From positions 248,001-312,000 of the forward strand of contig NZ_FOAG01000002.1 in assembly GCF_900109455.1 (NCBI RefSeq): a DNA stretch of 64,000 nt, in the 5' to 3' direction. The notes under the pieces were generated by a model. It made no database searches, was not told the origin of the DNA, and worked only from the letters and a program-made list of their open reading frames with translations. Of this stretch, positions 5,470 to 55,130 are shown piece by piece. The position numbers and the translations under genes were made by a program. Position 1 is the stretch's first letter. Each line of letters begins with the position of its first letter. The DNA is from Roseovarius azorensis (GTDB lineage: Bacteria; Pseudomonadota; Alphaproteobacteria; Rhodobacterales; Rhodobacteraceae).

Positions 5470-5478
5470 GCTCTACCT

Positions 5479-6093: not shown

Positions 6094-6111
6094 TCCTGCG
6101 TCCTCTTTCAG

Positions 6112-6902: not shown

Positions 6903-6903
6903 T

Positions 6904-6935
6904 CCCCCGGGGGGTATTTCCGCCAAGAAGAAGCC
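6904..6935 (-). repeat. dispersed intergenic repeat, copy 1
   Basis: Read on the minus strand it gives GGCTTCTTCTTGGCGGAAA followed by TACCCCCCGGGGGA. It resembles the elements at 35134-35162, 23101-23122 and 17631-17663, which share a TTCATC-type start, then GGCC/TTCC, then AAATACTC. Purely a sequence-similarity call. Confidence 0.5.
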
Positions 6936-7085
6936 GCGGGCGTGACTCTGCGGATCGGCTGCGCGACGCCTATGCGAAACACGCGCGGGTCTGCGTGGCG
7001 TAAAAATGCGGTGAGGTGTCGGGATTGATGGACTGCACTTCTGGCGGGCATGGTCTAAGATCGCCTGAGACAAGGAGACGCGCGC

Positions 7086-9860: not shown

Positions 9861-9879
9861 GTTTGCCCGTTCAGGGCAC

Positions 9880-10609: not shown

Positions 10610-10698
10610 GGCTCTTCTCCAAATCCGGTGGTCATCAGTGAATCATATTTTTGGACTCACGTGAATCCCCAATTGGACTTATGGCGATTTATTTTATG

Positions 10699-11889: not shown

Positions 11890-11895
11890 CAGACG

Positions 11896-13563: not shown

Positions 13564-13622
13564 GTCATCCCCGTCGGACAGTTTTGTTCATCATGGCCGG
13601 GTCTTGCGCCCGGTCTGGGTCA

Positions 13623-13646
13623 GAGGGGGCCCATGCGGGCCCCCTC
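13623..13646 (-). terminator. 10-bp GC hairpin between solute-binding protein and permease genes
   Basis: GAGGGGGCCC, loop ATGC, GGGCCCCCTC: a perfect 10-bp stem, 19 bp downstream of the solute-binding protein stop (minus strand). No T-run follows. It is more likely a transcript-stabilising or attenuating hairpin, which would leave more binding-protein than permease message, than a full terminator. Confidence 0.6.
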
Positions 13647-13664
13647 CGGTTCCGTCAGCCGCGC

Positions 13665-14780
13665 TTATTGCGCCAGCCATGCCTGGAATTTTGCGTCCAG
13701 ATCGTCACGGTTGTCGGCCCACCACTCATAGTCATAGATATGCGTGTTGGACGCGTTGGCGGGATCGGTCGGCATGTGCGGCGCCATCTCGATGCCAAGA
13801 TCGGCATGTTTGCCCACCAGCGGCGCCGAGGATGCGCGCGCCGGACCGTAGGAGATATAGGCCGCCTGATCGGCCAGACGCTGCGTATCGGTGGCGAACT
13901 TGAGGAAGTCCATCACCCGCGCCAGACGGTCCGCCGGAAGCCCGGCGGGAACGATCCAGCCGTCAAGATCGAACGACTGCATGTCCCACATCATGCCGAT
14001 CGGCTGATTCTGCTCTGCGATCGCCGAGAAAAGACGCCCGTTGTAGGTCGAGCCCATAAAGACCTCGCCATCCGCCAGAAGCTGCGGGGTTTCCGCACCA
14101 GCCGACCACCAGACGACCTGATCCTTGATCGTGTCCAGCTTGGCCAGCGCACGATTGACGCCCTCGTCGGTGCCCAGAACGTCATAGATCTCGTCCTTGG
14201 CGACGCCATCGCAATAGAGCGCCCATTCCATGTTGTCGATCGGGCGCTTCTGCAACGAGCGCTTGCCGGGATACTTGGCCAGGTCGAAAACGTCGCAGAC
14301 ACTGGTCGGCGGCTCGACCCCGGCAGGCACCATGTCCGTGCGATAGCCGAAGGTGGTGGAATAAACGATCTGCGGCACAAAGCAGTCGCTGACGATCAGA
14401 TCGCCAAAGTCTTCGCTGGCAGGGGTGCCATCAGGTGCCGCTGCCAGAACCTCGTCATGATCCAGCTCCATCGCCAGGCCTTCGTCACACAGACGCATCG
14501 CGTCGGACGCCACCACATCGACCAGATCCCAGGTCACGTTGCCTGCCTCGTTCATGGCGCGCAGCTTGGCCACAGCCTCGGCCGAGCTTTCGTCCCATGT
14601 CGCGGTCACGCCGGGATTCGCGGCCAGGTAGGGTTTGACATAGGCCTTGTCCTGACTGTCCTGATAGGCACCACCCCAGCTGACCAGCGTCATGCTGTTG
14701 GCCATATCCTGAGCGGTCAGAGCCGTGCCCGCCACCACGGTCAGCGCCGTTGTTGCGAACAGTGTTTTCGTGAGTTTCAT
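13665..14780 (-). CDS. extracellular solute-binding protein, spermidine/putrescine (PotD) type
   Basis: 371 residues. Signal peptide at residues 1-23 (MKLTKTLFATTALTVVAGTALTAQ), then the family start MTLVSWGGAYQDSQDKAYVKPYL. Periplasmic binding-protein family 8/PotD-like features include YSTTFGYRTDMV, SVCDVFDLAKYPGKRSLQKRP and GWIVPAG. The start is supported by GGGAG about 10 nt upstream. It lies between the ATPase gene and the two permease genes of the same operon. Compared with the other PotF-like protein in this window it lacks the N-terminal YNWSDYI signature, so the two bind different ligands; the ligand is unproven. Confidence 0.85.
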   Translation of the reverse strand: MKLTKTLFATTALTVVAGTALTAQDMANSMTLVSWGGAYQDSQDKAYVKPYLAANPGVTATWDESSAEAVAKLRAMNEAGNVTWDLVDVVASDAMRLCDEGLAMELDHDEVLAAAPDGTPASEDFGDLIVSDCFVPQIVYSTTFGYRTDMVPAGVEPPTSVCDVFDLAKYPGKRSLQKRPIDNMEWALYCDGVAKDEIYDVLGTDEGVNRALAKLDTIKDQVVWWSAGAETPQLLADGEVFMGSTYNGRLFSAIAEQNQPIGMMWDMQSFDLDGWIVPAGLPADRLARVMDFLKFATDTQRLADQAAYISYGPARASSAPLVGKHADLGIEMAPHMPTDPANASNTHIYDYEWWADNRDDLDAKFQAWLAQ

Positions 14781-14860
14781 ATGCGTACTCCCAGTTTAGT
14801 CCCGTTTTGGGTGGATGGGCCCCGCGCTACGGGAAGAACGTCCGGGGCCTTGCTCAACCC

Positions 14861-14884
14861 GTGCTGCCCGTCACCGGGCCGCAC
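14861..14884 (-). repeat. imperfect hairpin between ATPase and solute-binding protein genes
   Basis: GTGCTGCCCG, loop TCAC, CGGGCCGCAC: nine of ten base pairs match. It is located in the 117-bp gap after the ATPase stop. A second, looser 7-bp stem (GGCCCCG/CGGGGCC, 14818-14849) lies beside it. No T-run; possibly an intercistronic processing or stability element. Confidence 0.4.
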
Positions 14885-14897
14885 GAATACCTTATAC

Positions 14898-16001
14898 CTA
14901 TGGCGCGTCCAGCGCACGGCAATCTTCGGGCAGCCAGCCGATCTCGATCTGTTCGCCCGGTTGCAGGCGGCGCTGATCGGGCGCGTTGCGGGTCTTGATG
15001 ATGAAATCGTCGCGCCCCGCCACCTTGAGCCGGGTGCGGAAAATATCGCCCATGTAGATGAACTCGGCCACCTCGGCCTTGAGCGTATGCGCGCCCGGTC
15101 TCAGCCGGTCGCAGTTGAACTCCACCCGCTCGGGACGGATCGAGATCAGCGTGCGGTCGCCTGCCTTTTCCACGTTCACCGGCTTGGCGTCGATCAATCC
15201 GCCATCGTCAAGCTGCACCACCGCGAGACCGTCCTTGATCTCCTTGACCGTGCCCTCCATCGTGTTGTTCTCACCGATGAACTGCGCGACAAAACTGTTC
15301 TGCGGGCTCTCGTATAGCTCGTCCGGCGGCGCGATCTGCTGGATCTTGCCATCATTGAACACCGCCACGCGGTCCGACATGGTCAGCGCCTCGGTCTGGT
15401 CATGGGTCACATAGACCGTGGTGATGCCCAGCTCATGCGCCAGATGGGTGATCTCGAACTGCATCTTCTCGCGCAGTTGCTTGTCCAGCGCGCCCAGCGG
15501 CTCGTCCATCAGAACCAGCTCCGGCTCGAACACCAGCGCGCGGGCCAGCGCCACGCGCTGCTGCTGGCCACCCGACAGCTGCGCCGGACGCCGCCCGCCA
15601 AAGCCGCCCATCTCGACCATCTCCAGCGCCCGCCTGACCTTGGCCTCGCGGTCCGATCTGCCGATCTTGCGCACCTCCAGCGGAAAGCTGAGATTCTCGG
15701 CAATCGTCATATGCGGAAACAGCGCGTAGTTCTGGAACACCATGCCGATGCCGCGCTTGTGCGGCGGAATGTTGTTGATGCTCACACCGTCCAGCTTGAT
15801 CTCGCCATGTGTCGCGGTCTCGAACCCGGCCAGCATCATCAGGCAGGTTGTCTTGCCCGAACCGGACGGCCCCAGCATGGTCAGAAATTCGCCCTTGGGC
15901 ATGGTCAGGTTCAGATCCTTGACGACCAGAGTCTCGCCGTCATAGCTCTTTTGCACGCGCTCAAATGCAACGAACGCATCGTTGTTCCCGGTATCGGCCA
16001 A
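14898..16001 (-). CDS. ABC transporter ATP-binding protein, PotA type
   Basis: 367 residues: nucleotide-binding domain with Walker A (GPSGSGKTT, residues 44-52), Q-loop VFQNYALFPHM, signature LSGGQQQR, Walker B LVLMDEP and H-loop YVTHDQTEA. A C-terminal TOBE-like regulatory domain follows (TLISIRPERVEF ... AEFIYMGDIFRTRLKV). It energises the adjoining two permeases. The start is a TTG at 16001 with AGGGAG about 8 nt upstream; no in-frame ATG precedes the fold. First gene of the ABC operon. The 225 bp upstream (16002-16226) contain its promoter and no ORF I can support. Confidence 0.9.
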   Translation of the reverse strand: MADTGNNDAFVAFERVQKSYDGETLVVKDLNLTMPKGEFLTMLGPSGSGKTTCLMMLAGFETATHGEIKLDGVSINNIPPHKRGIGMVFQNYALFPHMTIAENLSFPLEVRKIGRSDREAKVRRALEMVEMGGFGGRRPAQLSGGQQQRVALARALVFEPELVLMDEPLGALDKQLREKMQFEITHLAHELGITTVYVTHDQTEALTMSDRVAVFNDGKIQQIAPPDELYESPQNSFVAQFIGENNTMEGTVKEIKDGLAVVQLDDGGLIDAKPVNVEKAGDRTLISIRPERVEFNCDRLRPGAHTLKAEVAEFIYMGDIFRTRLKVAGRDDFIIKTRNAPDQRRLQPGEQIEIGWLPEDCRALDAP

Positions 16002-16226
16002 GTTCGGCTCCCTGTTTATTTCTGTCGCGGCGTCCCCCGCGTTCGGTAAAAACTAAAACGTCAAACCCCCGATCATGCAAGCGGATTGCGGCAGTTTTTT
16101 CCCGAAACCGACCCGCGCAGGTCAAATCGCCTGCATGTCAAGCGATTTAAGACGATTTTCCTGCCAAAACTCGGGGCACGCGCACTCATGACGTGTGCAT
16201 CGGCAGCATTCTTGCGGTCCGCCATC

Positions 16227-17597
16227 CTATCCCAGCACCGATTTCACAGCCTTTGCAGTCTTGTGAATCACCTCGTCCGCCTCGTCCTGTGTCAGACAGA
16301 ACGGGGGTGCAAAGCCCAGAATATCGCCCTGCGGCATGGCGCGCGCGATCACACCCAGCCCACCCAGCGCGGTCGCCACCTGCGGCCCCACCTTGTCGGC
16401 GGCATCAAAGAACGTGCGGCTGTCGCGATCCCTGACGAATTCCACGGCGCAAAGCATCCCCTCGCCGCGCACCTCGCCGACATGCGGATGATCGCCCAGC
16501 GCCTCGGCCATGCCCCGGTTGAGATAGCCGCCGACATTGCGGTTGTTGGCGATCAGATCCAGCTCGTCCAGAAGCTTGAGATTGGCCACGCCCGCCGCCG
16601 CCCCGATGGGATGCGCGGAATAGGTCCAGCCGTGGCCGATGGGGCCGTTCTCGTCCGTCCCCTGCTCCAGCACCTTCCACATCCGGTCGCTCACGATGCT
16701 GCCCGACAGCGGCGCATAGGCGCTGGTCAGCCCCTTGGCGATGGTGATCAGATCCGGCGTCATCCCGTAGTGATCCGAGCCGAACATCGTGCCCAGACGG
16801 CCAAAGCCGGTGACCACCTCATCGGCAATGAGCAGGATGTCATGCTTTTGCAGCACTTCCTGGATCGCCGGCCAGTATCCGGCAGGCGGCGGCACGATGC
16901 CGCCTGTGCCCAGCACCGGCTCGCCGATGAAGGCGGCGATGGTATCCGCGCCCTCGCGTTCGATCAGCGCCTCAAGCTCTGCCACGCAATGCGCGACGAA
17001 CTGCGCCTCGGTCTGGTCCGGATTGGCGCGGCGGAAATAATAGGGCGCCTCGGTATGGATCACCTGCGCCAGCGGCAGGTCGAATTTCTTGTGAAACAAC
17101 TCCAGCCCGGTCAGCGAGCCGGTCATCAGCCCCGATCCGTGATAGCCGCGCCACCGGCTGATGATCTTTTTCTTCTCGGGCCGCCCGAGGATGTTGTTGT
17201 AATACCAGATCAGCTTGATGTTGGTCTCGTTGGCATCCGAACCCGACAGGCCGAAATAGACCTTGCTCATGCCCTTGGGCGCGCGGTCCATGATCATCTT
17301 GGCAAGGGTGATGGACGCCTCTGTCCCATGCCCCACATAGGCGTGGTAATAGGCCAGTTCACGCGCCTGCGTGGCAATCGCCTCGGCGATGTCCTGACGG
17401 CCATAGCCCACGTTGACGCAATACAGCCCGGCGAAGGCGTCGAGCAGGCGATTGCCGTCGCGGTCCTCGATATGGCTGCCGCTGCCGCCGGTGATCACCC
17501 GGTTCGGCGCCTCGCCGCGCGCGAACTGCGCCAGATGCGTCGAAGGGTGGAAAAAGTTTTCGCGATCCCATTGATCAAGTTGGTCGTTGCGCAGCAT
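16227..17597 (-). CDS. class III aminotransferase (Atf; ectoine-catabolic diaminobutyrate transaminase candidate)
   Basis: 456 residues, PLP-dependent class III (omega) aminotransferase. Landmarks: [47 protein letters not shown], the Asp of [13 protein letters not shown], and the Schiff-base lysine in [13 protein letters not shown]. Enzymes of this type use putrescine, beta-alanine, taurine or diaminobutyrate. The order eutB-eutC-asnC-ssd-atf is the known end of the Ruegeria-type ectoine-utilisation cluster, in which Atf converts 2,4-diaminobutyrate to aspartate semialdehyde. I favour that role; the sequence alone would also allow a putrescine-pyruvate aminotransferase. RBS AGAGGA upstream. 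Confidence 0.8.
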
Positions 17598-17630
17598 CGT
17601 CTGATCCTCTCATCGGGGTGCGTCCCCCTG

Positions 17631-17663
17631 TTTCATCGTTCCTGAAATACTCGCGCCGCAGGC
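17631..17663. repeat. dispersed intergenic repeat, copy 2
   Basis: TTTCATCGTTCCTGAAATAC followed by TCGCGCCGCAGGC, in the 83-bp gap between the ssd and atf genes. It matches the copy at 23101-23122 closely (TTCATCGTTCC, 2 nt, AAATACTC). Confidence 0.55.
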
Positions 17664-17680
17664 ATCCGCGCCCACCACGT

Positions 17681-19156
17681 TCACGCCCAGTCGCGGCAGA
17701 CGTATTTGATTTCCATGAATTCCTCCATGCCCCGGCGCGCCCCCTCGCGGCCCAGCCCCGACTGTTTGACCCCGCCAAAGGGGATCGGCGCGCCCGTGAC
17801 CTTGGTGCGGTTCACGGCCACCATGCCGAATTGCAGCGCCCGCGTCATGCGGTAGATGCGGCGCGGATCGTGGCTGTGCAGATAGGCGATAAGGCCATAT
17901 TCGGTGGCATTGGCGCGGCGCACCACCTCTTCCTCGGTGTCGAACGGCGTGATCGCGGCGACCGGGCCAAAGGTCTCGTCGCACATGATCGCCGCCTGAT
18001 CCGGCACATCGGTCAGCACCGTGGGCTGATAGAACAGCGGCCCGAGCGCGTCGCGCTTGCCGCCGCAGGCAAGTTTCGCGCCGTGTCTGAGCGCATCGGC
18101 CACATGTTCCTCCTGCTTGCGCACCGCACTCTCGTTCATCAGCGGGCCGATGTCGGGATCGTCCATGCCACGTCCAAGGCTCAGCTTCTGCGTCGCCTCG
18201 GTAAAGCGGCGGCAGAATTCGTCATAAACCGGCCGCTCCACGTAAATCCGGTTCGCACCCAGGCAATCCTGCCCCGAGGTGGCGAATTTGGCCTTGATAG
18301 ACTCTTCGACCGCCGTGTCCATGTCGGCATTGCGGAACACGATCACCGGCGCGTGCCCGCCCAGTTCCATCACCAGTTTCTTGACCGTCCCGGCGCATTG
18401 ACGATACAGAAGCTGCCCGATTTTCGTGGACCCGGTAAAGCTCAGCACACGCACGCGGGCATCCTCGGTCCAGGGTTCGACCACAGTTGCCGCGCGGCCC
18501 GTGACCACGTTGAACACGCCCGCCGGAATGCCCGCGCGCTCGGCCAGTTCCGCCAGCGCCAGCGCCGAATAAGGCGTCTCGCCCGAGGGGTGCGCGACCA
18601 CGGTGCAGCCCGCCGCCATCGCCGCCGCCGCCTTGCGCGTGAGCATGGCCGAGGGGAAATTCCACGGTGTGATGAGGGCGGCCACGCCCACCGGTTCCAG
18701 CCATAATTCCACCTCGGCATCGGGCAGATGACTGGTCACGCCCTCGATATTGGGGCGCTTGGCCTCTTCGGCGTAATATTCCACGAAACTCGCGGCATAG
18801 TCGATCTCGCCGCGCGCCTCTGACAGCGGCTTGCCCTGTTCCAGCACCATGATCCGCGCCAGATCCTCGCGGTGCTCCAACATCAGGTCGAACCACCGGC
18901 GCAGGATGGCAGAGCGATCCTGCGGCAGGGTCATCGACCAGCCGTCAAACGCCGCCTGCGCCGCATCGACCGCCGCGCGCGCCTGCCCGGCGCTGAGGCT
19001 TGCCACATCGCCCAGCGCGCTGCCATCCGCCGGATCGGTGACGGCAAGCGTCGCATTGTCATCGCCGCCCACCCATTTTCCGTTCACATAGGCAAAGCTG
19101 CGCACGAGGCGCGCATCGGTGATCCCGTTGCGGGTCCAGATTGCAGAGTCAGACAT
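17681..19156 (-). CDS. NAD(P)-dependent semialdehyde dehydrogenase (Ssd/GabD-like)
   Basis: 491 residues of the aldehyde dehydrogenase superfamily: WNFPSAMLTRKAAAAMAAGC (cofactor pocket), FTGSTKIGQLL, the general base Glu in VMELGGHAPVIV, and the catalytic Cys in SGQDCLGANRIYVE. It is most like succinate-semialdehyde dehydrogenases. In ectoine clusters the same enzyme class oxidises aspartate semialdehyde to aspartate. The start at 19156 (MSDSAIW) has AAGGGAG about 9 nt upstream; the longer frame lacks one. Next to asnC upstream and atf downstream. Confidence 0.85.
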   Translation of the reverse strand: MSDSAIWTRNGITDARLVRSFAYVNGKWVGGDDNATLAVTDPADGSALGDVASLSAGQARAAVDAAQAAFDGWSMTLPQDRSAILRRWFDLMLEHREDLARIMVLEQGKPLSEARGEIDYAASFVEYYAEEAKRPNIEGVTSHLPDAEVELWLEPVGVAALITPWNFPSAMLTRKAAAAMAAGCTVVAHPSGETPYSALALAELAERAGIPAGVFNVVTGRAATVVEPWTEDARVRVLSFTGSTKIGQLLYRQCAGTVKKLVMELGGHAPVIVFRNADMDTAVEESIKAKFATSGQDCLGANRIYVERPVYDEFCRRFTEATQKLSLGRGMDDPDIGPLMNESAVRKQEEHVADALRHGAKLACGGKRDALGPLFYQPTVLTDVPDQAAIMCDETFGPVAAITPFDTEEEVVRRANATEYGLIAYLHSHDPRRIYRMTRALQFGMVAVNRTKVTGAPIPFGGVKQSGLGREGARRGMEEFMEIKYVCRDWA

Positions 19157-19265
19157 GGTGGCGCTCCCTTCGCGCCGAAGAATGCACTGCACAGACCAGA
19201 AAGCGAGGCTGAAGATGTCATCGATTGCAGATTATTCGTCTGAAAAGCATCATACAAAAGACGAT

Positions 19266-19739
19266 TCACCCGAAAAACATCTCCAGCGGCGGCAGGCGTG
19301 GGGATTTCACAGGCTTGGTGACGATATAGGTGAAATAGCGCGCCAACCCGATCCGCGCCTCCAGCATCTCGTCGATCAGCCGCTGATAGGCGTCGATGTC
19401 GCGGGTCACGATCTGCATCAGGTAATCGAACCCGCCGCCCAGCGCCCAACAGGCCGTGACCTCACCATAGCGCTGCACGCTGTCCTCGAAGGCGCGGAAA
19501 CTCGCGGGCGTATGATCGGCCAGTTCGACGGCGACAAAGACCGTCACATGCGGCCCCAGTTTCCTGAGGCTGATGCGCGCATGATAACCCTCGATCAGCC
19601 CCGCCTCTTCCAGCCGCCGCAGCCGCTCCCAGCAGGGGCTGGCCGACAGACCGACGCGCGCCGCCAGATCGGCCTTGGTGATGCGCCCCTCATCGGCCAG
19701 TACCCGCAGGATATCCAGATCGCGTGCGTCGAGTTTCAT
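19266..19739 (-). CDS. asnC: Lrp/AsnC family transcriptional regulator
   Basis: 157 residues. N-terminal winged helix-turn-helix (LDARDLDILRVLADEGRITKADLAARVGLSASPCWERLRRLEEAGLIEGYHA) and a C-terminal RAM ligand-binding domain (VTVFVAVELADH ... VTACWALGGGFDYLMQIVTRDIDAYQRLIDEML). The ATG overlaps the eutC stop as ATGA, so it is translated with the ectoine genes. In ectoine-catabolic clusters this position is held by an AsnC/DoeX-type regulator that senses pathway intermediates (N-acetyl-diaminobutyrate, diaminobutyrate). No EnuR (MocR-type) regulator is in the window. Confidence 0.88.
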   Translation of the reverse strand: MKLDARDLDILRVLADEGRITKADLAARVGLSASPCWERLRRLEEAGLIEGYHARISLRKLGPHVTVFVAVELADHTPASFRAFEDSVQRYGEVTACWALGGGFDYLMQIVTRDIDAYQRLIDEMLEARIGLARYFTYIVTKPVKSPRLPPLEMFFG

Positions 19740-48084: not shown

Positions 48085-48170
<86 letters not shown>

Positions 48171-48225
48171 TATTTTTATGGTAAGTGTTTGAATTATATT
48201 GGGAAATTAGGTTGGCACGTTGACC

Positions 48226-48235
48226 GTATCCCCCC
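48226..48235 (+). repeat. arm-type integrase site candidate, left end
   Basis: GTATCCCCCC, sharing GTATCCCCC with 54976-54984 and TATCCCCC with the inverted copy near 55059-55068. It is found only near the two ends of the element in my reading, as expected of integrase/excisionase arm sites. The surrounding 48171-48284 stretch is AT-rich without an ORF. Confidence 0.4.
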
Positions 48236-48284
48236 AATTATACACCCTATGTGCCGCGCTTAACCTGACACTCGAGCCGCGAAG

Positions 48285-48512
48285 TCAGCGCCCAGTTTCG
48301 GGCAAATGAAACGCCAGTGAAGCCCCAGCCGTTGCCCGCGCCATGAAGGCTTCGGCACATTCGCCAGCTTCACGGGTCAAGCCGCCACCGCCCATTAGCA
48401 GCGCCCCGCCGGGTTCGCCCGTCACAGCGTCGCAAATCAAAATGACGGAAGGTCCAGCGCCCGCCGCGCCCCGCTTGCCTTCCAGTCGGTCAAGTCGCTT
48501 GTGCAGGGTCAT
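48285..48512 (-). CDS. hypothetical 75-aa island protein
   Basis: 75 residues starting MTLHKRLDRLEGKRG, with a glycine-rich middle (SVILICDAVTGEPGGALLMGGGG). No known domain recognised. The N-terminal KRLDRLE heptad-like start resembles the neighbouring 66-aa protein's TIKTRIARLE, so both could be short coiled-coil proteins. The ATG overlaps the DUF5681 gene stop as ATGA. Last gene of the chain, next to attL. Confidence 0.6.
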   Translation of the reverse strand: MTLHKRLDRLEGKRGAAGAGPSVILICDAVTGEPGGALLMGGGGLTREAGECAEAFMARATAGASLAFHLPETGR

Positions 48513-48934
48513 GCAGCATCGCCTTCCAGCGCCGCCAAGCGGGCTTCCAGTTCGGTCGTTTCCAGCGTGCGCCGGTAGGTTTCCACCAGTGCCATAATGT
48601 GCGCGCCCTCTTGCGGGGTAAGGTCGCCATCCGCCACCGCCACCAGCACCGCTCCCGCCGCCTTGGCGGCATCGGCCGCCGATTGCATTTTGGGCAGGTC
48701 GAATTGCACCGGGGCGTCACGCCGGGACGGCGCGATGCGTTCAAGGCATAAGCGCAACGCAGCGCCATCGCCACCCAGCGCCAGTTCCACCGCCTTGCGG
48801 GTCAGGGATTCAGCTTCGCCATCCAGCAGCGCCAGCGCCGCCTGTGTGGCCTTGTGGCGGGTGCCCTTTGGCTTTCCGGGGTTGCCGGGGCCGAATGTGC
48901 CATCCGTATTTCGCCCGAATTTACGGCTGGTCAT
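48509..48934 (-). CDS. DUF5681-like island protein (possible terminase-small-subunit relative)
   Basis: 141 residues. The basic N-terminus TSRKFGRNTDGTFGPGNPGKPKGTRHKATQAALALLDGEAE matches the GxGNPGxPKG-type DUF5681 motif found in phage-linked proteins. The middle SLTRKAVELALGGDGAALRLCLERIAP and C-terminal helix LVETYRRTLETTELEARLAALEGDAA follow. Function unproven; in phages such proteins often sit at the packaging locus. Overlaps both neighbours by 4 bp. Confidence 0.65.
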   Translation of the reverse strand: MTSRKFGRNTDGTFGPGNPGKPKGTRHKATQAALALLDGEAESLTRKAVELALGGDGAALRLCLERIAPSRRDAPVQFDLPKMQSAADAAKAAGAVLVAVADGDLTPQEGAHIMALVETYRRTLETTELEARLAALEGDAA

Positions 48935-49131
48935 GGCTGCCCCCGTGCTGCGTCATGGGCGTTAAGGATTGCCAGAAGGTCAGCGTCGGGCAGGCTTTGC
49001 GGAAAGGTGCCCGCCGCTTGCGCAGCCGCGATGCGGGTGCATATGTCCGGGGGCAGATCGAGGTCCGGCATGCAAGACCCGCGCGCTGGGCGGGATTGTT
49101 CCAATCTGGCGATGCGTGTTTTAATGGTCAT
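48931..49131 (-). CDS. hypothetical 66-aa island protein
   Basis: 66 residues from MTIKTRIARLEQSRPARGS, ending LLAILNAHDAARGQP. A short amphipathic N-terminal helix, no recognised domain. The stop overlaps the DUF5681 start (ATGA). The start is placed at 49131 because the upstream extension falls in an AT-rich non-coding stretch. Confidence 0.55.
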   Translation of the reverse strand: MTIKTRIARLEQSRPARGSCMPDLDLPPDICTRIAAAQAAGTFPQSLPDADLLAILNAHDAARGQP

Positions 49132-49198
49132 AGATCTACAATATAGCAAAGTTATTGAAGAATAACGACGCTGAACAGGAAAACGCAATTTGCGTGTC

Positions 49199-49597
49199 TT
49201 ATTCCCAAATCCATTTAAGACATTCGCGAAGTGCCACTGGCACTAAGTCATAACCGGGTATCCCAGCGTGATATGCCTCAATATTCCAATGAACATCAAA
49301 AAACTTTTCAAATGCAACTTCCACGCTTTCTTCCTCTAGCGCCAAGTCCATGAAGTCGTCGTATATGTTAACTATTGCATCTTTCACACTACGCGCTCTT
49401 TTTCTTTCATTATCTAAAAACTCAAGATTATCTAAAAACTCAAAATCGATATCACCTGTGTAATTAATGCGGTCCGCCACAAGTTTCAGATATTCGTTTT
49501 GAAAGCATACAGAACTTGCCCGGCTCATAGTGCTTAGCCCTAAACTAATAGTAATGAATACAGCAACCGACATTACAATTTTTTGGTTATTTTTCAT
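49199..49597 (-). CDS. hypothetical secreted protein, AT-rich cargo gene
   Basis: 132 residues starting with a signal peptide (MKNNQKIVMSVAVFITISLGLSTMSRAS), followed by an acidic, helical mature part (FEFLDNLEFLDNERKRARSVKDAIVNIYDDFMDLALEEESVEVAFEKFFDVHW). No known domain. Base composition and codon use are strikingly AT-rich compared with every neighbour, and it is not chained by ATGA overlaps, so it looks like later-acquired cargo in the island. It is likely exported to the periplasm. Confidence 0.6.
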   Translation of the reverse strand: MKNNQKIVMSVAVFITISLGLSTMSRASSVCFQNEYLKLVADRINYTGDIDFEFLDNLEFLDNERKRARSVKDAIVNIYDDFMDLALEEESVEVAFEKFFDVHWNIEAYHAGIPGYDLVPVALRECLKWIWE

Positions 49598-49775
49598 ATC
49601 CAAACACCTAATGACGTCATGCACCACCGCCACCATTCGCGAGCAACGTTTAACACTCCCAATGTGCGCGCCATCCGTCAAGCGATATAACCGCCCCGTC
49701 TGGGTTAGCGCCTACCTATCCGCCGAGGCTTTCGCCGTAGGTTGCCAGAGCGGGTTTATCGGGCTTTGCGCTTGG

Positions 49776-49961
49776 CTAGGGCGTCGCCACAACCGCGACA
49801 TTTGCGACACGAAAAGTGGGTTTCCGGGCGTTAGAGGCTTGCGACACTTGCGACATTTGCGACACGGGGGCCGCAGCCTGAGCTTGTGTCGCAGTTGTCG
49901 CAGAAGTCGCAGGGGGTTGCCCCTCAATTTCCGCCAACTTGGCGCGTGCATCACACCACAT
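49776..49961 (-). CDS. small repeat-encoded ORF overlapping an iteron-like array
   Basis: 61 residues: MWCDARAKLAEIEGQPP, then tripeptide repeats ATSATTATQ and VSQMSQVSQ, ending FRVANVAVVATP. The ATG overlaps the end of the DUF3987 gene by 11 bp. The tripeptide repeats are produced by 9-bp DNA repeats in two orientations (49793-49912). It may be a real small protein, or the reading frame may be a by-product of a cis-acting repeat array. Confidence 0.45.
   Translation of the reverse strand: MWCDARAKLAEIEGQPPATSATTATQAQAAAPVSQMSQVSQASNARKPTFRVANVAVVATP
49793..49912. repeat. iteron-like 9-bp repeat arrays, possible replication origin
   Basis: TTGCGACAY occurs at 49802, 49839, 49848 and 49857, the last three exactly in tandem at 9-bp steps. 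A 17-mer, GCGACATTTGCGACACG, appears at 49795-49811 and 49850-49866. In opposite orientation TGTCGCAG occurs at 49887 and 49896, and AGTCGCAG at 49905, again at 9-bp steps. This lies just downstream of the DUF3987/primase genes, where satellite elements often carry their origin. Confidence 0.6.
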
Positions 49962-51456
49962 CGCCCGCCCCTTTCACGATGCGCCAGGCTTCGGCACGCG
50001 CTGCACCTCGCACCAAGGTTCCAGCTTCCAGCGACACAAGCCACCCATGCTTTTCGAGCATGCCCAGCGCTGCCCTTGCCTTCGGGCTTTCGCGTAAGGC
50101 GTTTGGCCCTAACCGCACTACATCGCGCACCGTGATTTCGGCTTCCGGCCAGCTTTCCAGCAGCCACCGCCGCAAGGCTTCGGCCCGATCGATTTCAGCC
50201 GATACACTAGCAGCTCTTGCCAGTCGTGAAGCTTCGGAAAGGTAGTATTGCGCAAGGTCGATTGCATCGGCCATGTCGCCCGCCTGCACCTTCACAGCGT
50301 CAAGGTTGCGCCAGAGCGTCAGCACACCAGAGATACGCGCAGCCTGTTCCGCCGCCTTGGAAGCCGTGCCCGTGATATGCACCAAGTCGCCACCGGGGGC
50401 TTGCGCAGCCTCGATAGCGTCGGAAAACGCCACCAGCAGCGCGCGGGCTTCCGGTGCCAGTTGCAGCGTTCGCGGTTCCAGTTCGCGGGTTTCCGGGTCC
50501 ATTGGCAGGGGAGTGTCGAGAATATTGCGCAGCCGCCCCGCGAAGCTTGCCAGCGCCATTTCATCGCACCGCGCGTTCGCCTGCATCCGGGTTCCGATTG
50601 CGCTGGGCGGTTCACATATCAGAAAGCGGGGCAGAAAGCCTGTATCCGCCGCCAGCGGGTCAGCCATGAAGCCCCGCGCCACAGTCGGTTGCACCATCAG
50701 ATGCACCGCCAGCCGCCGCCCGAATAGCGTCGCGTGCCCATCGCCCGAGCGCGTGCGCCTTATAGGGTTGCCTTGCCAAAGGTCATTGAAAGCGGCCAGC
50801 GTCTTTTGCCGGTTTTCCGAGTTCATGGCGTGCCCGCCCAGGAATTGCCCGCCTTCATCCGAGAAAAGCCCAAGGCTCGGTTGTCCGTGCGCGAAAAGCT
50901 TTGTCAGCCCTTCAAAGGTCGGTTCGGTCACGGTTCGGTCAGCGGAAGGCGGGGCTTCGGGTTCCGACCCGAGCGCTTCTAGGTCAGCTTGCGCCGCCGT
51001 GCGCTTTTCACCTTTGCCGGATTTGGCTTCGGCAAGTATCTTGTCGCGTGCCCCCTTCCAGAGCGCGTGTGCATTGCGCCAGCTTTCCATTGCTTCGCGC
51101 TGGGCTTTGGCTTGTTCGCGTTCATGGGCGCGCAGCGCAGTCATAAGGGGCGCGTCGCAAGCGCTTTTGCGTTCGCCGCTTCGCGCTATGGTCAGCGCAT
51201 AAAGTGACGTCGGGCGAGGCCCGCCAAGTGTTTCCACATCGGCAAAGCCTTGCACCGCCAGCGAAGCCACCGCCAGCGCAGATTGCGCCGGGATTGCTAC
51301 GGGGGCTTGTGTCACGCCTTGCACCGCTTCCACAGCCGGGCGCAGCGGCCCGAGCGCTTGCACCGGATAGGCTGCACCGGGGGCGATTTCGCGCACCAGA
51401 GGCTCCGGCCCTTCGGGCGCATATGCGGTTTCTTTCATATGGGGTTGCGCGTTCAT
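49951..51456 (-). CDS. DUF3987 domain-containing replication-associated protein
   Basis: 501 residues. The N-terminal half carries IPAQSALAVASLAVQGFADVETLGGPRPTSLYALTIARSGERKSACDAPLM, a Walker-A-like SGERKSA loop. LGLFSDEGGQFLGGHAMNSENRQKTLAAFNDLWQG and FLPRFLICEPPSAIGTR follow, as in DUF3987 (YfjI-like) proteins of integrated elements. These are thought to be helicase/ATPase partners of primases. The C-terminal region (LESWPEAEITVRDVVRLGPNALRESPKARAALGMLEKHGW) looks like a winged helix. The ATG overlaps the primase stop as ATGA. Confidence 0.8.
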   Translation of the reverse strand: MNAQPHMKETAYAPEGPEPLVREIAPGAAYPVQALGPLRPAVEAVQGVTQAPVAIPAQSALAVASLAVQGFADVETLGGPRPTSLYALTIARSGERKSACDAPLMTALRAHEREQAKAQREAMESWRNAHALWKGARDKILAEAKSGKGEKRTAAQADLEALGSEPEAPPSADRTVTEPTFEGLTKLFAHGQPSLGLFSDEGGQFLGGHAMNSENRQKTLAAFNDLWQGNPIRRTRSGDGHATLFGRRLAVHLMVQPTVARGFMADPLAADTGFLPRFLICEPPSAIGTRMQANARCDEMALASFAGRLRNILDTPLPMDPETRELEPRTLQLAPEARALLVAFSDAIEAAQAPGGDLVHITGTASKAAEQAARISGVLTLWRNLDAVKVQAGDMADAIDLAQYYLSEASRLARAASVSAEIDRAEALRRWLLESWPEAEITVRDVVRLGPNALRESPKARAALGMLEKHGWLVSLEAGTLVRGAARAEAWRIVKGAGDVV

Positions 51457-52334
51457 GCCGCCGCCCTTTCCTGCAAAATGTCGTTAAAGTCGCGCCCGGT
51501 TCCGGGGTCGAGAATTGAAACTTGCCAGCCCAAACCGTGCGCCCGATCTGCAAGAGCGTGCCCGGCTTCACGGCCCGGCCCATCGCCATCGGTTGCGATT
51601 GTCAGCCGCCCCGCTTGTGCCGGAAGGCGCAGCCCGCGCAGGCCAGCAGTTGAAAGGCCCGCCCATACCATTGCTGGGCCATTCAGAAGCCCGCACAGCA
51701 GCGACAACGCGCTTTCAATGCCTTCCGCTATCACCAGCCGCGAAGGCCCATCAGCAAGCCGCACAGCGCCGCCAGCGGTTGCCCCCAGCATCAGCTTGTC
51801 AGGTTCGATTGCAGCCTTGCCCGAGCCATCAGCGCGCAAGTAGGTGCGATGCACAGCGGCCATGCCCACGCCTTGCACTGCCGCCACCATTGCCGGGTAG
51901 CGCTTTGCAGTCGGCCCGTGCCAGCAGGCCGCATGAAAGCGCAGGGTCGGGGGCAATGGGCAGGTGATACCCCGCCCGCGCAAATAAGCTTCCGCCGCCG
52001 TGCCCCCTATCGGCTGGGCTTCCAGCCAAAGCCGCTTCGCTTGTTCCGCCCGCTTCACGGCTTCAGCCTTGGCTTCGCGTTCGCGCTGGGCAAGGATTGC
52101 AGCATCGGGGGGCGAATAATCCCCCGAGTGCAGCCCAGCCGCCGCCAGTATGTCGAGAAAGGCGCAAGCGCTTTTCTTGCAATCCAGCACCAGCCGCCCG
52201 TTGCGCCCATCAGCAAGGGTCAGGGCGTTTTGTGTGCGTTTGCGTTCCGGCTGGCAAATAGGGCAAGGCGCAGCGCCGTAGCGGCCATGCCAGCGCCCGC
52301 CCAGCGCTTGTGTTAGGTCGCGTGCATCAGTCAT
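51453..52334 (-). CDS. Toprim domain primase-like protein
   Basis: 293 residues. N-terminal zinc-ribbon-like segment (GRYGAAPCPICQPERKRTQNALTLADGRNGRLVLDCKKSACAFLDILAA), middle TAAEAYLRGRGITCPLPPTLRFHAACWH, and Toprim motif VIAEGIESALSLLCGL with the acidic ATDGDGPGREAG. P4-type primases share this order. Start at 52334 chosen by the 4-bp overlap with the 33-aa gene; the upstream extension is in another coding region. It should synthesise primers for replication of the excised element. Confidence 0.85.
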   Translation of the reverse strand: MTDARDLTQALGGRWHGRYGAAPCPICQPERKRTQNALTLADGRNGRLVLDCKKSACAFLDILAAAGLHSGDYSPPDAAILAQREREAKAEAVKRAEQAKRLWLEAQPIGGTAAEAYLRGRGITCPLPPTLRFHAACWHGPTAKRYPAMVAAVQGVGMAAVHRTYLRADGSGKAAIEPDKLMLGATAGGAVRLADGPSRLVIAEGIESALSLLCGLLNGPAMVWAGLSTAGLRGLRLPAQAGRLTIATDGDGPGREAGHALADRAHGLGWQVSILDPGTGRDFNDILQERAAA

Positions 52335-52432
52335 GCCAGCGCCCCCCAGATGCGCGCCCCTGCCAGCCCAAGCGCGGCCAGCGTTGCGGGGTCGAGGATT
52401 GCCGCGAAGGTTGCGAGGTGATGCCGGGTCAT
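52331..52432 (-). CDS. 33-aa island peptide, overlapping both neighbours
   Basis: 33 residues: MTRHHLATFAAILDPATLAA, then LGLAGARIWGALA. Its ATG overlaps the stop of the winged-helix gene (ATGA at 52429-52432) and its stop overlaps the ATG of the primase (52331-52334), which is strong positional evidence for translation. The sequence is one amphipathic to hydrophobic helix. No function known. It would be missed by length-filtered gene callers. Confidence 0.65.
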   Translation of the reverse strand: MTRHHLATFAAILDPATLAALGLAGARIWGALA

Positions 52433-52824
52433 ATAGCACCACCTTTCCGCACATCAGAGCGCAACATGTAGCGCCCATGCCAGCCTGAAAATTCGCCACC
52501 GTGCTTCTCGGTCAGGGTTTCAATTTCCACGCCCAATTCGCGCAGATTGAAAACATATGCAGACCACCTTGGCGCAGGTTCGCAAATTGGTGTGCATCCC
52601 TTCCAGCCCGCCGCCATAAGCCTTTCGAGTGCCCAAGCATCGCGGCCAGATACGACAATGTTAAAGGGTTCGCCCGCGCTGGGCGTGACGTGATACAGGC
52701 CAGCCCGCTTTGCGCGGCCCTTGCCTTGTGCTATATTCGGGGTGCCCGCCGCATTCGCTTGACGGCTTCCCCGGCCCGGTTCCTGTTGGCGCAGGTTCCG
52801 GGTCAATCCTTGCCCGCCGCCCAT
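52429..52824 (-). CDS. winged-helix-like island protein
   Basis: 131 residues beginning MGGGQGLTRNLRQQEPGRGS, a basic flexible tail. A compact domain follows: GLYHVTPSAGEPFNIVVSGRDAWALERLMAAGWKGCTPI, then YVFNLRELGVEIETLTEKHGGEFSGWHGRYML. The LRELGVEIETLTEKHGG segment looks like a winged-helix recognition region. I place it as a DNA-binding regulator or replication accessory by context. Start 52824 is 1 bp downstream of the AlpA-like stop. Confidence 0.65.
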   Translation of the reverse strand: MGGGQGLTRNLRQQEPGRGSRQANAAGTPNIAQGKGRAKRAGLYHVTPSAGEPFNIVVSGRDAWALERLMAAGWKGCTPICEPAPRWSAYVFNLRELGVEIETLTEKHGGEFSGWHGRYMLRSDVRKGGAI

Positions 52825-52825
52825 A

Positions 52826-53008
52826 TCAAGCGGCCTTGTCGCGCATATCGCGCAGATGGGCGTCAACGTCGCCCTCGGGCCAGTAAAGCCGCCCGCCCAA
52901 CTTGATCGGCTGGGGCAGTCGGCCCGCCGCGAGGTCGAGATAAATCGCAGAGCGTGAACGCCCGCCAAGCTTAGCGCGCAATTCGGTCAGGGTGAGATAG
53001 GTTTGCAT
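52826..53008 (-). CDS. AlpA-family helix-turn-helix regulator
   Basis: 60 residues, MerR-like small helix-turn-helix of the AlpA/DUF-excisionase type: YLTLTELRAKLGGRSRSAIYLDLAAGRLPQPIKLGGRLYWPEGDVDAHLRDM. SRSAIYLDLAAGRLPQPIKLGGRLYW is the typical recognition helix and wing. Such proteins control integrase expression or act as excisionases. A 7-bp inverted repeat lies just upstream of the start (53015-53039). Confidence 0.85.
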   Translation of the reverse strand: MQTYLTLTELRAKLGGRSRSAIYLDLAAGRLPQPIKLGGRLYWPEGDVDAHLRDMRDKAA

Positions 53009-53014
53009 TTTTGA

Positions 53015-53039
53015 ACCATCCTTTTTGGTCTTGGATGGT
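53015..53039. promoter_or_regulatory. inverted repeat upstream of the AlpA-like gene
   Basis: ACCATCC (53015-53021) and GGATGGT (53033-53039) with an 11-nt spacer, 7-31 bp upstream of the AlpA-like ATG. Possible auto-regulatory operator; inference from position and symmetry only. Confidence 0.4.
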
Positions 53040-53088
53040 GCAAAGGTGACGGTTTGTGTCTTGCTGGTCGTATCTGGAATTAACAGAG

Positions 53089-53712
53089 CTAATCCAAAGA
53101 ACGGTCATCCATTCTCTGATACTTGCGCCAGATGCTATAGACGGCGCTATAAGACATTGGATTTAAACCAAGTTTTTTCATTGCGGCTGCAACAGCATCG
53201 CAAGCGCTATGCGGTGCGCTCGCAGCGTTTCGGGTTGGGTACATTCCTTCTTCCACAAGGTCGCATACAGCGCTCCAAACATAGAAATCACGCCACCAAG
53301 TTTCTCCCTGAATCCCTTTTCTTTCATTCTTAGGCATTGGTGGCTTTTCCTTTCCACTAAGCGCTTCCATAGCCCAAACCCTCAAATCATCAGGCATAGT
53401 TTCTTGCCTCTTGAGAAACCGGGCCGCCAAAATCCCCGCCGCTTCGAAAGCCACTGGGTGCCATTCCGCTGCCTTGATAAGTTGCGGAATGTAATCAGCT
53501 TCTTCGCCCACCTTCATCCCAAAAAGGCTACGCGTTCCTAACTGCATGTCGTTCAAGGACCAACGTTCTGCTTGGCTTGCAAGGTTCAGAGTCATTAACG
53601 AACGTGTAAAATGCTTAACCTCTCCAATCCGGTTATTTTGTAGCCGGGTCAGCGATGCCGAGACAGCCTCCTGAAAGTTGGGTGGCGATCCGTCAGTTCT
53701 GTCCCGAGCCAT
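53089..53712 (-). CDS. hypothetical 207-aa island protein
   Basis: 207 residues from MARDRTDGSPPNF. Helical; the middle has EEADYIPQLIKAAEWHPVAFEAAGILAARFLKRQETMPDDLRVWAMEAL, and the C-terminus has ACDAVAAAMKKLGLNPMSYSAVYSIWRKYQRM, which reads like a helix-turn-helix. No known domain recognised. Less GC-rich than the integrase and primase genes. Its ATG lies in a 32-bp sequence duplicated from the end of the integrase gene, so the start overlaps a copy of the integrase stop (TGATG). A TTG at 53769 is the alternative start. Confidence 0.6.
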   Translation of the reverse strand: MARDRTDGSPPNFQEAVSASLTRLQNNRIGEVKHFTRSLMTLNLASQAERWSLNDMQLGTRSLFGMKVGEEADYIPQLIKAAEWHPVAFEAAGILAARFLKRQETMPDDLRVWAMEALSGKEKPPMPKNERKGIQGETWWRDFYVWSAVCDLVEEGMYPTRNAASAPHSACDAVAAAMKKLGLNPMSYSAVYSIWRKYQRMDDRSLD

Positions 53713-53736
53713 CAGCGCGCCCCTGCCAGCTTCACC
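53705..53736. repeat. 32-bp direct repeat, copy A (at hypothetical gene start)
   Basis: Identical over 32 bp to 53772-53803, offset 67 bp. Copy A includes the ATG of the 207-aa gene; copy B includes the real integrase stop. Read on the minus strand both hold GCGCGCTGATGGCTCG. Confidence 0.9.
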
Positions 53737-53771
53737 CATACTCAAGAAACGCCGCTGCTCTTGGCTCAAAT

Positions 53772-53803
53772 CGAGCCATCAGCGCGCCCCTGCCAGCTTC
53801 ACC
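53772..53803. repeat. 32-bp direct repeat, copy B (integrase 3' end)
   Basis: Second copy of the 53705-53736 sequence, spanning the last integrase codons (Leu-Ala-Gly-Ala-Arg-stop). The pair indicates a small tandem duplication between integrase and the next gene. Confidence 0.9.
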
Positions 53804-54972
53804 ACCTGCCCAGCGCCGCCGGTCACATGGTCGGCCCAGCGTTCAGCCAGCTTGCGCCGTTGTTCCAGAAAATCGGTTCTGCGATAGGCGCGCACCACGC
53901 CACCATCCACCACATGCGCCAGCATCGCCTCTGCGACTTCATGCGGGGCGTCGGTTGCTTCGGCCAGCCATGTGCGCAGGCTTGTGCGGAAGCCATGAGG
54001 GCGGGCTTCCAGCCCCCGCCGCTCCATGTGCCGCGAAAGCGTCATGTCGCTAATCACGCCTTGCTGATTGTTCGGAAACAGAAAGCCGTTGCGGGCGTGC
54101 GGGCGTGCAAGGTCGATGACGCGCAGGGCTTCACGCGACAGGGCCACGCGGAAAGCTTCGGTTGCGCCCTTGCGGCCCTTCATGGCGTCGGCTGGCACGG
54201 TCCACACGTCGCCTTCGATTTGGTCAAGCCGGATATGGCGCAGCGGGTTCGAGCGCACCCCGGTCAGGATTAGAAGCCGCAAGGCAAGATGCGTCGGGGT
54301 TGGTTCTTCAAGGCTGGCATAGAAGCCCGGCACATCAGCCCAAGCCATCGCGGGAATGTTCTTTGCCACATGCCGCGATTTCCCCAGCAGCGCCTTTGCC
54401 TTGTCGGTCGCTTGCAAATCCACATCAAGGCCCAGCGCCGCCGCATGTTTCAGCACGATTGAAAGCCGGTTCAATGCCTTCCGCGCCGTGTCGGCTTTGG
54501 TATGCCAGAGGGGGGCCAATGTGTCGCGAATGTCGCGTTGGTCAAGGTCAGTGACGGGCAACTTGCCCAGCTTTGGCAGAACGTGAAGGGTCAGGGGCGA
54601 AAGCCACCGCCCCGCCGTGCCATCGCCTTTCAATTCGGCTTTGCGGGCTTCGAAAGCATCAGCGGTCAGGATTGCCAGCGATATATCCTCGCGCCGCGCG
54701 GCCCGTTCCTCTTTCTCGCGTTCCTTCACCGGGTCACGGCCCGCCGCCGCCACATCGCGCCAGCGCCCGGCAATCTTGCGCGCTTCCGCCAGCCCGAGCG
54801 ATGGATAACCACCCAAGCCCATTTCGCGCCGCCGCCCGTGAACGGTCACGCGCAGCACCCATTGCGCCCCGCCATCTTCGCGCTGCACCAGCCACAGCCC
54901 GGCACCGTCGCAATGCTTGCCCACCGGAGGCGATTTCAGAAAGCCCGCCGTCAGTCTGTTTTTTGCCCGCAT
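53779..54972 (-). CDS. tyrosine-type site-specific integrase (DUF4102/P4-like)
   Basis: 397 residues. N-terminal DUF4102-type domain (GKHCDGAGLWLVQREDGGAQWVLRVTVHGRRREMGLGGYPSLGLAEARKIAGRWRDVAAAGRDPVKERE), a SAM-like core-binding domain, then the catalytic domain. Catalytic residues: Arg in LILTGVRSNPLRHIRLDQIE, the HGFRTSLRTW block (H-x-x-R), His of LAHVVDGG, and Tyr in RAYRRTDFLEQRRKL. It inserts the island into tRNA-Leu. It lies at the attR end, transcribed toward the island interior. Confidence 0.93.
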   Translation of the reverse strand: MRAKNRLTAGFLKSPPVGKHCDGAGLWLVQREDGGAQWVLRVTVHGRRREMGLGGYPSLGLAEARKIAGRWRDVAAAGRDPVKEREKEERAARREDISLAILTADAFEARKAELKGDGTAGRWLSPLTLHVLPKLGKLPVTDLDQRDIRDTLAPLWHTKADTARKALNRLSIVLKHAAALGLDVDLQATDKAKALLGKSRHVAKNIPAMAWADVPGFYASLEEPTPTHLALRLLILTGVRSNPLRHIRLDQIEGDVWTVPADAMKGRKGATEAFRVALSREALRVIDLARPHARNGFLFPNNQQGVISDMTLSRHMERRGLEARPHGFRTSLRTWLAEATDAPHEVAEAMLAHVVDGGVVRAYRRTDFLEQRRKLAERWADHVTGGAGQVVKLAGAR

Positions 54973-54975
54973 TTC

Positions 54976-55068
54976 GTATCCCCCTAAATATCCACCCTAA
55001 GCTAGTGGATAGGGCCGGACAAGGCAAGACACAGTTGGGCATGTTCACCCAAGTTTTAAGGGGGATAT
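54976..55068. repeat. arm-type site cluster at the right end
   Basis: GTATCCCCCT at 54976-54985 and, inverted, AAGGGGGATAT at 55058-55068. Between them TATCCAC/GTGGATA (54989-54995/55005-55011) forms a 7-bp inverted repeat. These lie between the integrase start and attR, where integrase arm sites and the int promoter are expected. Confidence 0.45.
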
Positions 55069-55114
55069 TGGCAAAAGCGGACAAATAAAAACACGTAAAA
55101 ACAATAGCTTGGTG

Positions 55115-55130
55115 CCTCTCCTGGGCACCA
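55115..55130 (+). repeat. attR core (16-bp direct repeat)
   Basis: Exact copy of the tRNA-Leu 3' end at 48155-48170. It marks the distal border of the island; flanking DNA from 55131 returns to chromosomal genes. Confidence 0.9.

Follow-up and report, generated by a model that had tools for sequence, protein, structure and literature searches.

An island in a tRNA-Leu gene

What kind of element has entered the tRNA-Leu(CAG) gene of Roseovarius azorensis, and how would it move with so few genes of its own? The stretch of DNA analyzed here (hereafter the window) comprises 64,000 nucleotides of contig NZ_FOAG01000002.1 and holds, at 48155-55130, a 6,960-bp island that encodes an integrase, an AlpA-type regulator, a Toprim primase, and a DUF3987 protein. 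We consider this island to be probably an integrated phage satellite, on the evidence of its tRNA borders, its replication genes and iterons, and the phage genes to which its relatives are linked.

The island is bracketed by a 16-bp exact repeat, CCTCTCCTGGGCACCA, which occurs twice on the plus strand of the window (48155-48170 and 55115-55130), the left copy being the final 16 bases of the tRNA gene; no tRNA-derived repeat of 17-20 bp was found in the window. These are the borders of about 7 kb that a preliminary description of the sequence had proposed. The GC content is 59.9% inside the island vs 63.4% in the rest of the window, and all assigned genes lie on the minus strand, in the reading order integrase, orf226, AlpA, HTH_91, orf33, primase, DUF3987, a short open reading frame (ORF), orf160, orf66, DUF5681, and orf75. 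The preliminary description had called nearly all of them ATGA-coupled, which was too strong (ATGA overlaps occur at 5 of the 11 junctions). The genes that it named are present, with Pfam confirming the integrase, AlpA, winged-helix, Toprim primase, and DUF3987 families and with DUF5681 (PF18932) at 24.5 bits, below the cut-off of 27.5; orf226 and orf160 were missing from its list. Among the AlpA matches, Phage_AlpA scored slightly above its cut-off and HTH_17 below. In scans of 10 window proteins against Pfam and PHROGs, no structural, transfer, terminase, or capsid gene was recognized, in agreement with a compact, integrated, satellite-like element that has its own replication genes. The features are as follows.

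48085-48170, plus strand: intact tRNA-Leu(CAG), the target gene, whose 3' end forms one attachment copy (ARAGORN)
48155-48170: attachment copy 1, last 16 bases of the tRNA (exact repeat)
48285-48512, minus strand: orf75, a small protein whose relatives (e.g., in L109, 64%) adjoin DUF5681 (sequence comparison)
48509-48934, minus strand: DUF5681 protein, 141 amino acids (aa), predicted helical with a disordered N-terminus (PF18932 at 4e-5, below cut-off; AlphaFold2 pLDDT 70)
48931-49131, minus strand: orf66, with an ATGA overlap with DUF5681 and relatives in L021, L082, and L109 (ORF list, relatives)
49199-49681, minus strand: orf160, an AT-rich singleton whose N-terminus looks hydrophobic and signal-like by eye (ORF list)
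49776-49961, minus strand: small ORF of 61 aa overlying the iteron region (relatives mostly 117-143 aa)
49794-49911: candidate origin with iterons, [CT]GCGACA units at 49794 and 49803 and at 49840, 49849, and 49858, inverted at 49887, 49896, and 49905
49951-51456, minus strand: DUF3987 protein of 501 aa whose predicted fold is that of an MCM-like AAA+ helicase (Pfam 8e-94; AlphaFold2 pLDDT 82)
51453-52334, minus strand: primase, 293 aa, with a CPxC...CxxxxC zinc ribbon (by eye), DUF7146, and Toprim_3 (Pfam, PHROGs)
52331-52432, minus strand: orf33, ATGA-coupled on both sides, with an 85% match in L021 (ORF list)
52429-52824, minus strand: HTH_91 winged-helix protein, perhaps a regulator or origin binder (PF22324 at 4e-35)
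52826-53008, minus strand: AlpA-type regulator/excisionase (Phage_AlpA, HTH_17; phrog_66, excisionase and regulator)
53089-53712, minus strand: orf226, the gene after the integrase, without a family match (ORF list)
53779-54972, minus strand: tyrosine integrase with an N-terminal arm domain (Arm-DNA-bind_3/Phage_integrase; Pfam)
55115-55130: attachment copy 2 (exact repeat)

Relatives share the borders and exchange the target

A search of 394 genomes from the host's family (Rhodobacteraceae) at E<=1e-50 detected relatives of the primase in 45, and among 60 relatives, 21 had one at E<=0.001; the own genome is counted in both figures. A further 36 loci came from GTDB contigs, and IMG/VR contributed two contigs. 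The named records are mostly Rhodobacteraceae, the exceptions including, among GTDB contigs, a Hyphomonadaceae, a Paracaedibacter, and metagenome-assembled genomes labelled Planctomycetaceae and Proteobacteria. With the weaker E<=0.001 matches left out, 92 loci were compared, and the removal of five duplicates gave 87 distinct loci.

In 41 of these 87 loci, window included, the primase gene is flanked by a tRNA 3' end on one side and an exact copy of that end, 13-54 bp long, on the other (the segment searched was 57 bp, and the longest repeats may really extend further). In a control that covered 61 tRNA genes, this arrangement was seen in 41 cases with the real 3' ends vs one each with reversed and complemented decoys and eight with the 5' ends. 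All 41 elements have their tRNA in a single orientation and at the end distal to the integrase. Because relatives show the same borders so much more often than either decoy does, a coincidental origin of the 16-bp repeats can be excluded. At one locus (L071), a chance tRNA-Cys repeat was dropped and a tRNA-Arg repeat retained; among the other 46 loci, 32 had no tRNA at all and 28 had less than 4 kb before or less than 5 kb after the primase. The border spacing of the 41 elements ranges from 5,625 to 13,041 bp (median, 9,486 bp). The window element is the fifth smallest, so that its description as unusually small holds within its own family and fails against the satellites of Vibrionaceae discussed below, which average 6.7 kb in the available part of their description (PMC10803314).

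Target and replicon are clearly reshuffled in this primase family. The bordered elements occupy tRNAs of nine identities (Ser 16, Arg 5, Thr 5, Leu 4, Lys 4, Glu 2, Ala 2, His 2, and Phe 1), and on the primase tree, in which 11 of 38 inner branches are well supported, these identities require 21 changes, where the fewest possible would be 8 and shuffling gave 23.7 on average. As to gene content, by profiles built in this analysis, the integrase and the primase occur in all 41, AlpA in 40, DUF3987 in 29, and HTH_91 in 15, and the order integrase, alpA, primase is present in 40 of the 41, window included. Many alphaproteobacterial relatives thus share both the borders and the core order. Less common are restriction-modification enzymes of the MmeI type (5), DUF5681 (3), the HK97 major capsid protein (3), prohead protease (1), and Terminase_4 (1). 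A scan of the genes after the primase (150 of 164 proteins, 37 elements) returned 84 Pfam families, and among the 25 commonest per library were HTH regulators, Rap1a-like proteins, nucleases, Panacea antitoxins, transposases, and type III restriction-modification, among others.

The host genome itself contains one match to the primase and one to DUF3987. In all 30 genus loci, own included, tRNA-Leu adjoins the left-hand NAD-binding gene, and the right flank of the island follows the tRNA in none of the 29 others within the stretch seen (one ends at the tRNA). No clean empty site was thus found among the genus loci, and an unoccupied attachment site with both flanks was not obtained. One congener (G015) has, at the same tRNA-Leu, a 92-bp match to the DUF5681 end, and this scar of the DUF5681/orf75 end (L236 14612-14757) suggests that such islands come and go there.

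The replication module and its predicted helicase

In the window, a separate zinc-ribbon Toprim primase precedes the DUF3987 gene. An AlphaFold2 model of DUF3987 built with 15 relatives (pLDDT 82, pTM 0.77) points to an MCM-like AAA+ helicase: 997 Foldseek candidates were aligned, and all 50 of the matches listed belong to MCM helicases or to replisome/CMG entries with chain names that suit MCM subunits. The best listed match (VIA-align) had a Z of 17.7 to MCM, with an rmsd of 3.7-3.8 over 265-268 of 501 residues, and some matches extend into the C-terminal part, to residue 495; Foldseek agrees on MCM, with low whole-chain TM scores. Conserved in the protein are a Walker A lysine, a Walker B aspartate, a Gln-Pro, and an Arg-Phe, with K97, D200, and R277 invariant in the 15 sequences. 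We take these three residues to belong to MCM motifs; the Gln-Pro stands at the place of the sensor-1 Asn-Pro and the Arg-Phe at that of the arginine finger. The Walker A motif is SGERKS in the window group and a fuller GxxxxGKS in L054 and L072. Sequence searches of the PDB with DUF3987 and the primase gave no match, and the viral-contig scan gave no relative of DUF3987.

DUF3987 and DUF927 have been listed by Kazlauskas and colleagues as predicted helicases of mobile elements (PMC5862659). A DUF927 protein is cited there as a proven helicase, by a reference titled 'an active MCM-like helicase', and the available portion of that paper contains no statement on an MCM likeness of DUF3987. In L086, the one bordered element without DUF3987 that was checked, DUF927 stands in that place (2e-80), which fits both being helicases.

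Behind the DUF3987 gene of the window, [CT]GCGACA occurs five times, in two groups with a spacing of 9 bp inside each, and three further units are inverted. A 9-bp-periodic array at this place is the strongest of the element in 19 of 29 bordered elements with DUF3987, window included (combined p about 2e-19, a value that ignores the kinship of the elements and comes from a lag-9 test chosen after the repeats had been seen and first run on 18 elements). Two elements, L210 and L212, rank near the bottom, and a simple count of 8-mers beat all 30 shuffles in just 10 of 24 elements. The motif varies by element (TGTCGCAAG, GTGTAGCGG, ATTCGCAGA, GTTTTGTCG, and others), and inverted partner arrays were scored in four elements (L062, L093, L099, and L104) and were visible on inspection in the window and L109.

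Seven of the 29 (L054, L055, L057, L058, L089, L096, and L100) also carry an inverted array of their own motif inside the integrase gene, around codons 255-270, with up to 3 mismatches allowed in 18 bp. Weaker arrays, with 4 mismatches, occur in L105 and in L210, the latter having no array at the origin place; the window integrase has none. In L055, the iteron-bearing integrase gene is split, and in L055, L057, and L058 the iterons of 8-10 of the 28 other elements fit equally well, as expected within one motif class. On these sequence patterns, the paired arrays suggest that one protein may read both the origin and the integrase-gene iterons.

Captured phage genes and a relative joined to a phage

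The three HK97 capsid carriers among the bordered relatives are L104 (confirmed at 3e-67) and L086 and L203 (by Pfam or PHROGs). The prohead protease of L086 and the small terminase of L104 were likewise confirmed by Pfam or PHROGs, and L203 has a small terminase by PHROGs that our own profile missed. All three belong to the seven elements with repeats of 45-54 bp, their own measuring 48-54 bp. Portal, large terminase, and tape-measure genes gave no match inside the borders of the 41 elements by our own profiles, which divergent versions could escape. The small terminase recurs in two unbordered IMG/VR contigs: L021 (7,722 bp) has a primase of 82% identity, a DUF5681 of 91%, a Terminase_4 protein, and an MmeI enzyme, and L022 has a broken 44% primase beside a Terminase_4 protein, with portal, protease, capsid, and large terminase recognized by our own profiles only.

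The phage link is also supported by a relative of the island that is joined into a phage gene. Its sequence ends at ATTTAAATGGTGCCCGAGG in the IMG/VR contigs L109, L108/L118 (one contig), and L114, beyond which the contigs run on, 99.96-100% identical, within an HK97-gp10-like gene (PF04883) that belongs to a tailed phage. The junction (L109 5935, L108 1697, and L114 270; intact site, L116 4449) falls at GGTGCCC, a tRNA-Leu-like attachment core that can be compared with that of the window, TGGTGCCCAGGAGAGG. The gene is uninterrupted in L116 and L136, which carry CGGTGCCCGAGG at the junction place, and L116 has portal, S78 protease, HK97 capsid, and large terminase genes by Pfam. The satellite part of L109 comprises a DUF3987 end (83%), DUF5681 (85%), orf75 (64%), and an MmeI enzyme, the integrase of this element lying off the contigs. 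Contig L115 starts exactly at the satellite-phage junction. The satellite ends of the three contigs are 99.9% identical and may come from one strain; a left junction was looked for and not found, and only one junction of this type was seen. Judged from the sequences, an assembly error is unlikely, and the contigs would represent an insertion by a tRNA-Leu-type integrase resembling the helper-embedded islands (HE-PICIs) compared below.

Signals common to satellite and phage were sought and set aside. The satellite part of L109 and the phage L116 share no 16-mer and two 14-mers on one strand, which does not mark a shared packaging site. The L109-type iteron TGTCGCA is scattered five times in L116, but 332 7-mers, itself included, are equally common there.

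Weighing the satellite against other mobile elements

The island is known from its borders, gene content, predicted fold, and iterons, and from the conservation of borders and order across its family, from which we infer excision, replication, a helper, and packaging. Upon entry or induction of a helper phage, the integrase and AlpA would excise the island at the 16-bp tRNA-Leu repeats, and replication of the circle would start at the iteron origin (49794-49911) and use the island's Toprim primase and MCM-like DUF3987 helicase, with the winged-helix protein perhaps acting as regulator or origin binder. Helper-made particles would then take up the DNA, probably by passive, PICMI-like packaging, because the window copy has no recognized terminase or capsid gene. 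In addition to the phage genes described above, the satellite reading is backed by borders and an orientation shared among 41 of 87 loci, by the MmeI-type (5 of 41) and type III restriction-modification systems, and by the 21 changes of tRNA identity.

Several observations weigh against it. No helper, excised circle, or packaged DNA has been observed, and most bordered relatives lack a recognized terminase or capsid gene. In the host genome, Phage_capsid and Phage_portal gave one hit each, both in the gene transfer agent (GTA) cluster, and Terminase_4 gave none; a resident HK97-type helper was thus not seen in a search confined to that type, which would leave a virulent helper or a phage of a different type. 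The 61-aa ORF that overlies the origin is shorter than its counterparts in most relatives (117-143 aa). Finally, primase relatives at E<=1e-20 appear in 38 plasmid records, of which 22 are typed as conjugative (20 are listed, at 35-58% identity), and the primase has a weak, partial match to the TraI relaxase model (41.5 bits; cut-off, 929.85). Our confidence was lowered slightly when this match and the closer plasmid relatives were counted.

The shortened ORF, the missing HK97-type prophage, the 32-bp duplication at the integrase/orf226 junction, and the congener G015, in which 16.5 kb were searched and only the DUF5681/orf75-end scar was found at the same tRNA, would all suit a decaying satellite or prophage remnant that no longer moves. 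We regard this as unlikely, given that the integrase, AlpA, primase, and helicase frames are open, the attachment repeats are exact, and the core order is common to elements in many genera. Somewhat less likely still is a plasmid-like integrative or integrative mobilizable element that excises and replicates on its own and is passed on, without phage, when a resident plasmid or integrative conjugative element conjugates. The plasmid-borne primase relatives, the TraI-model match, the plasmid-like combination of primase, helicase, and iterons, and the DUF5681 relatives on Methylobacterium and Waddlia plasmids argue for such an element. In contrast, no relaxase was found among the window proteins or among the 25 commonest accessory Pfam families of the relatives, and the relatives with captured capsid or terminase genes, like the one inserted in a phage gene, speak for phage. 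The host also has a GTA cluster, and the island might be moved by these particles; GTA heads contain about 4 kb of random host DNA, less than the island, and nothing was found that links the island to the GTA genes, which makes this explanation very improbable. The cluster lies at 5335-19627 of locus L199 (G000:C21) and includes a GTA_megatron equivalog.

A broader scheme can be proposed, which we advance tentatively and with more doubt than conviction. A large Rhodobacteraceae satellite family would be built on one replicon (Toprim primase, MCM-like DUF3987 or DUF927 helicase, and element-specific 9-bp iterons), the integrase-gene iterons of some members would let the replication initiator gate integration or excision, and the replicon would move among tRNA genes and phage late genes. 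Its members would differ in packaging, some having no such gene, some a small terminase taken up from phage, and some a single captured capsid gene that reshapes the helper head.

Relation to known satellites

The closest known family is that of the phage-inducible chromosomal minimalist islands (PICMIs) of Vibrionaceae, as described in the available text of PMC10803314, with an integrase, alpA, and a DUF3987 'primase' (a DUF3987/DUF5906 gene) as its core, which the window shares apart from the fis site. The likeness extends to a gene adjoining the integrase, to another that usually separates alpA from the DUF3987-type gene, a size of about 6-7 kb, small cargo, and, in the window copy, the absence of capsid-remodelling, TerS, and capsid genes, whereas 3 of the 41 bordered relatives have a capsid gene and some carry terminase genes. 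The window element is by definition not a PICMI, because it sits in tRNA-Leu(CAG) and not at fis, and the 41 bordered elements are themselves defined by tRNA borders. Activation by a virulent helper and packaging as a concatemer also belong to the PICMI definition. It differs further in its alphaproteobacterial family, in the separate Toprim primase before DUF3987, in an integrase that does not overlap the next gene, and in its iterons, a word absent from the PICMI main text. The PICMI model gave 135 hits, 67 of them in Vibrionaceae (PMC10803314), and the other 68 may include such elements.

Gram-negative phage-inducible chromosomal islands (PICIs), as outlined in the accessible part of PMC10111431, likewise have an integrase and AlpA zone, a replication zone, and a late zone that captures helper genes. 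The order integrase, alpA, replication genes is found in the window and, with the window counted, in 40 of 41 bordered elements. The Pfam and PHROGs scans recognized no packaging-interference, TerS, or Bro-type gene in the window. The HE-PICIs of Enterobacterales (same source) resemble the L109 relative, which lies inside a phage late gene, and differ from the window copy, which lies in a tRNA gene.

The three bordered relatives with an HK97 major capsid gene, two of which also have a small terminase, resemble capsid-forming PICIs (cf-PICIs); unlike cf-PICIs, these three gave no portal or large terminase match with our own profiles, and the window has no recognized capsid morphogenesis gene. 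The P4-like satellites share tRNA integration, an AlpA-type regulator, and primase and helicase functions of their own, although these functions are separate proteins in the window, and the Pfam and PHROGs scans of the window proteins, which included no dedicated search, gave none of the P4 head-size, polarity-suppression, or late-activator families.

The literature searched, which excluded the PICMI supplements, gave no report of PICMI satellites for Alphaproteobacteria and none of phage satellites for Rhodobacteraceae; the one preprint found for phage satellites and Roseobacter concerns another element, the one paper found for Rhodobacter is on a Pseudomonas phage, and the combination of DUF3987, satellite, and integrase appeared only in the PICMI paper. 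The island is probably a PICMI/PICI-like phage satellite of a family new to that literature, with probably passive packaging in the window copy, and it likely works as a PICMI does. The earlier suggestion of a new alphaproteobacterial satellite family may hold, within that literature, as to the family, the kind being already known. If this is true, minimalist satellites, shown by experiment in Vibrionaceae, would extend to Rhodobacteraceae. A reading of DUF3987 as an MCM-like helicase also bears on PICMI replication, since the PICMI paper names the protein a primase (PMC10803314, part of the text), and the candidate origin comes with a natural control in that the iterons of relatives differ and some are repeated in the integrase gene.

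DUF5681 and other small genes

The DUF5681 protein had been placed earlier as a possible packaging-redirecting factor, and a role as terminase or packaging factor is not supported. The gene occurs in only 3 of 41 bordered elements, it stands in L021 on the same contig as a genuine Terminase_4, and it matches no solved fold (no PDB profile match up to E 1 and no PDB fold match at E<=0.001 with a model of pLDDT 70). Its relative on the Waddlia plasmid adjoins primase and helicase genes. Its best viral fold matches are weak (top match, E 1.1e-3, TM about 0.4) and are to phage proteins, the first three unnamed, one a DUF5681 protein, and one of homeodomain type. These matches count for a packaging role, as does a 38-kb phage contig (L110, 7998-9730) in which a 30% DUF5681 relative directly precedes a P22-type coat protein gene.

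Among the remaining genes, orf160 is probably cargo and had no relative in the loci searched. The direct repeat at the integrase/orf226 junction (53705-53736 and 53772-53803) perhaps reflects a recent duplication that separated two overlapping genes.

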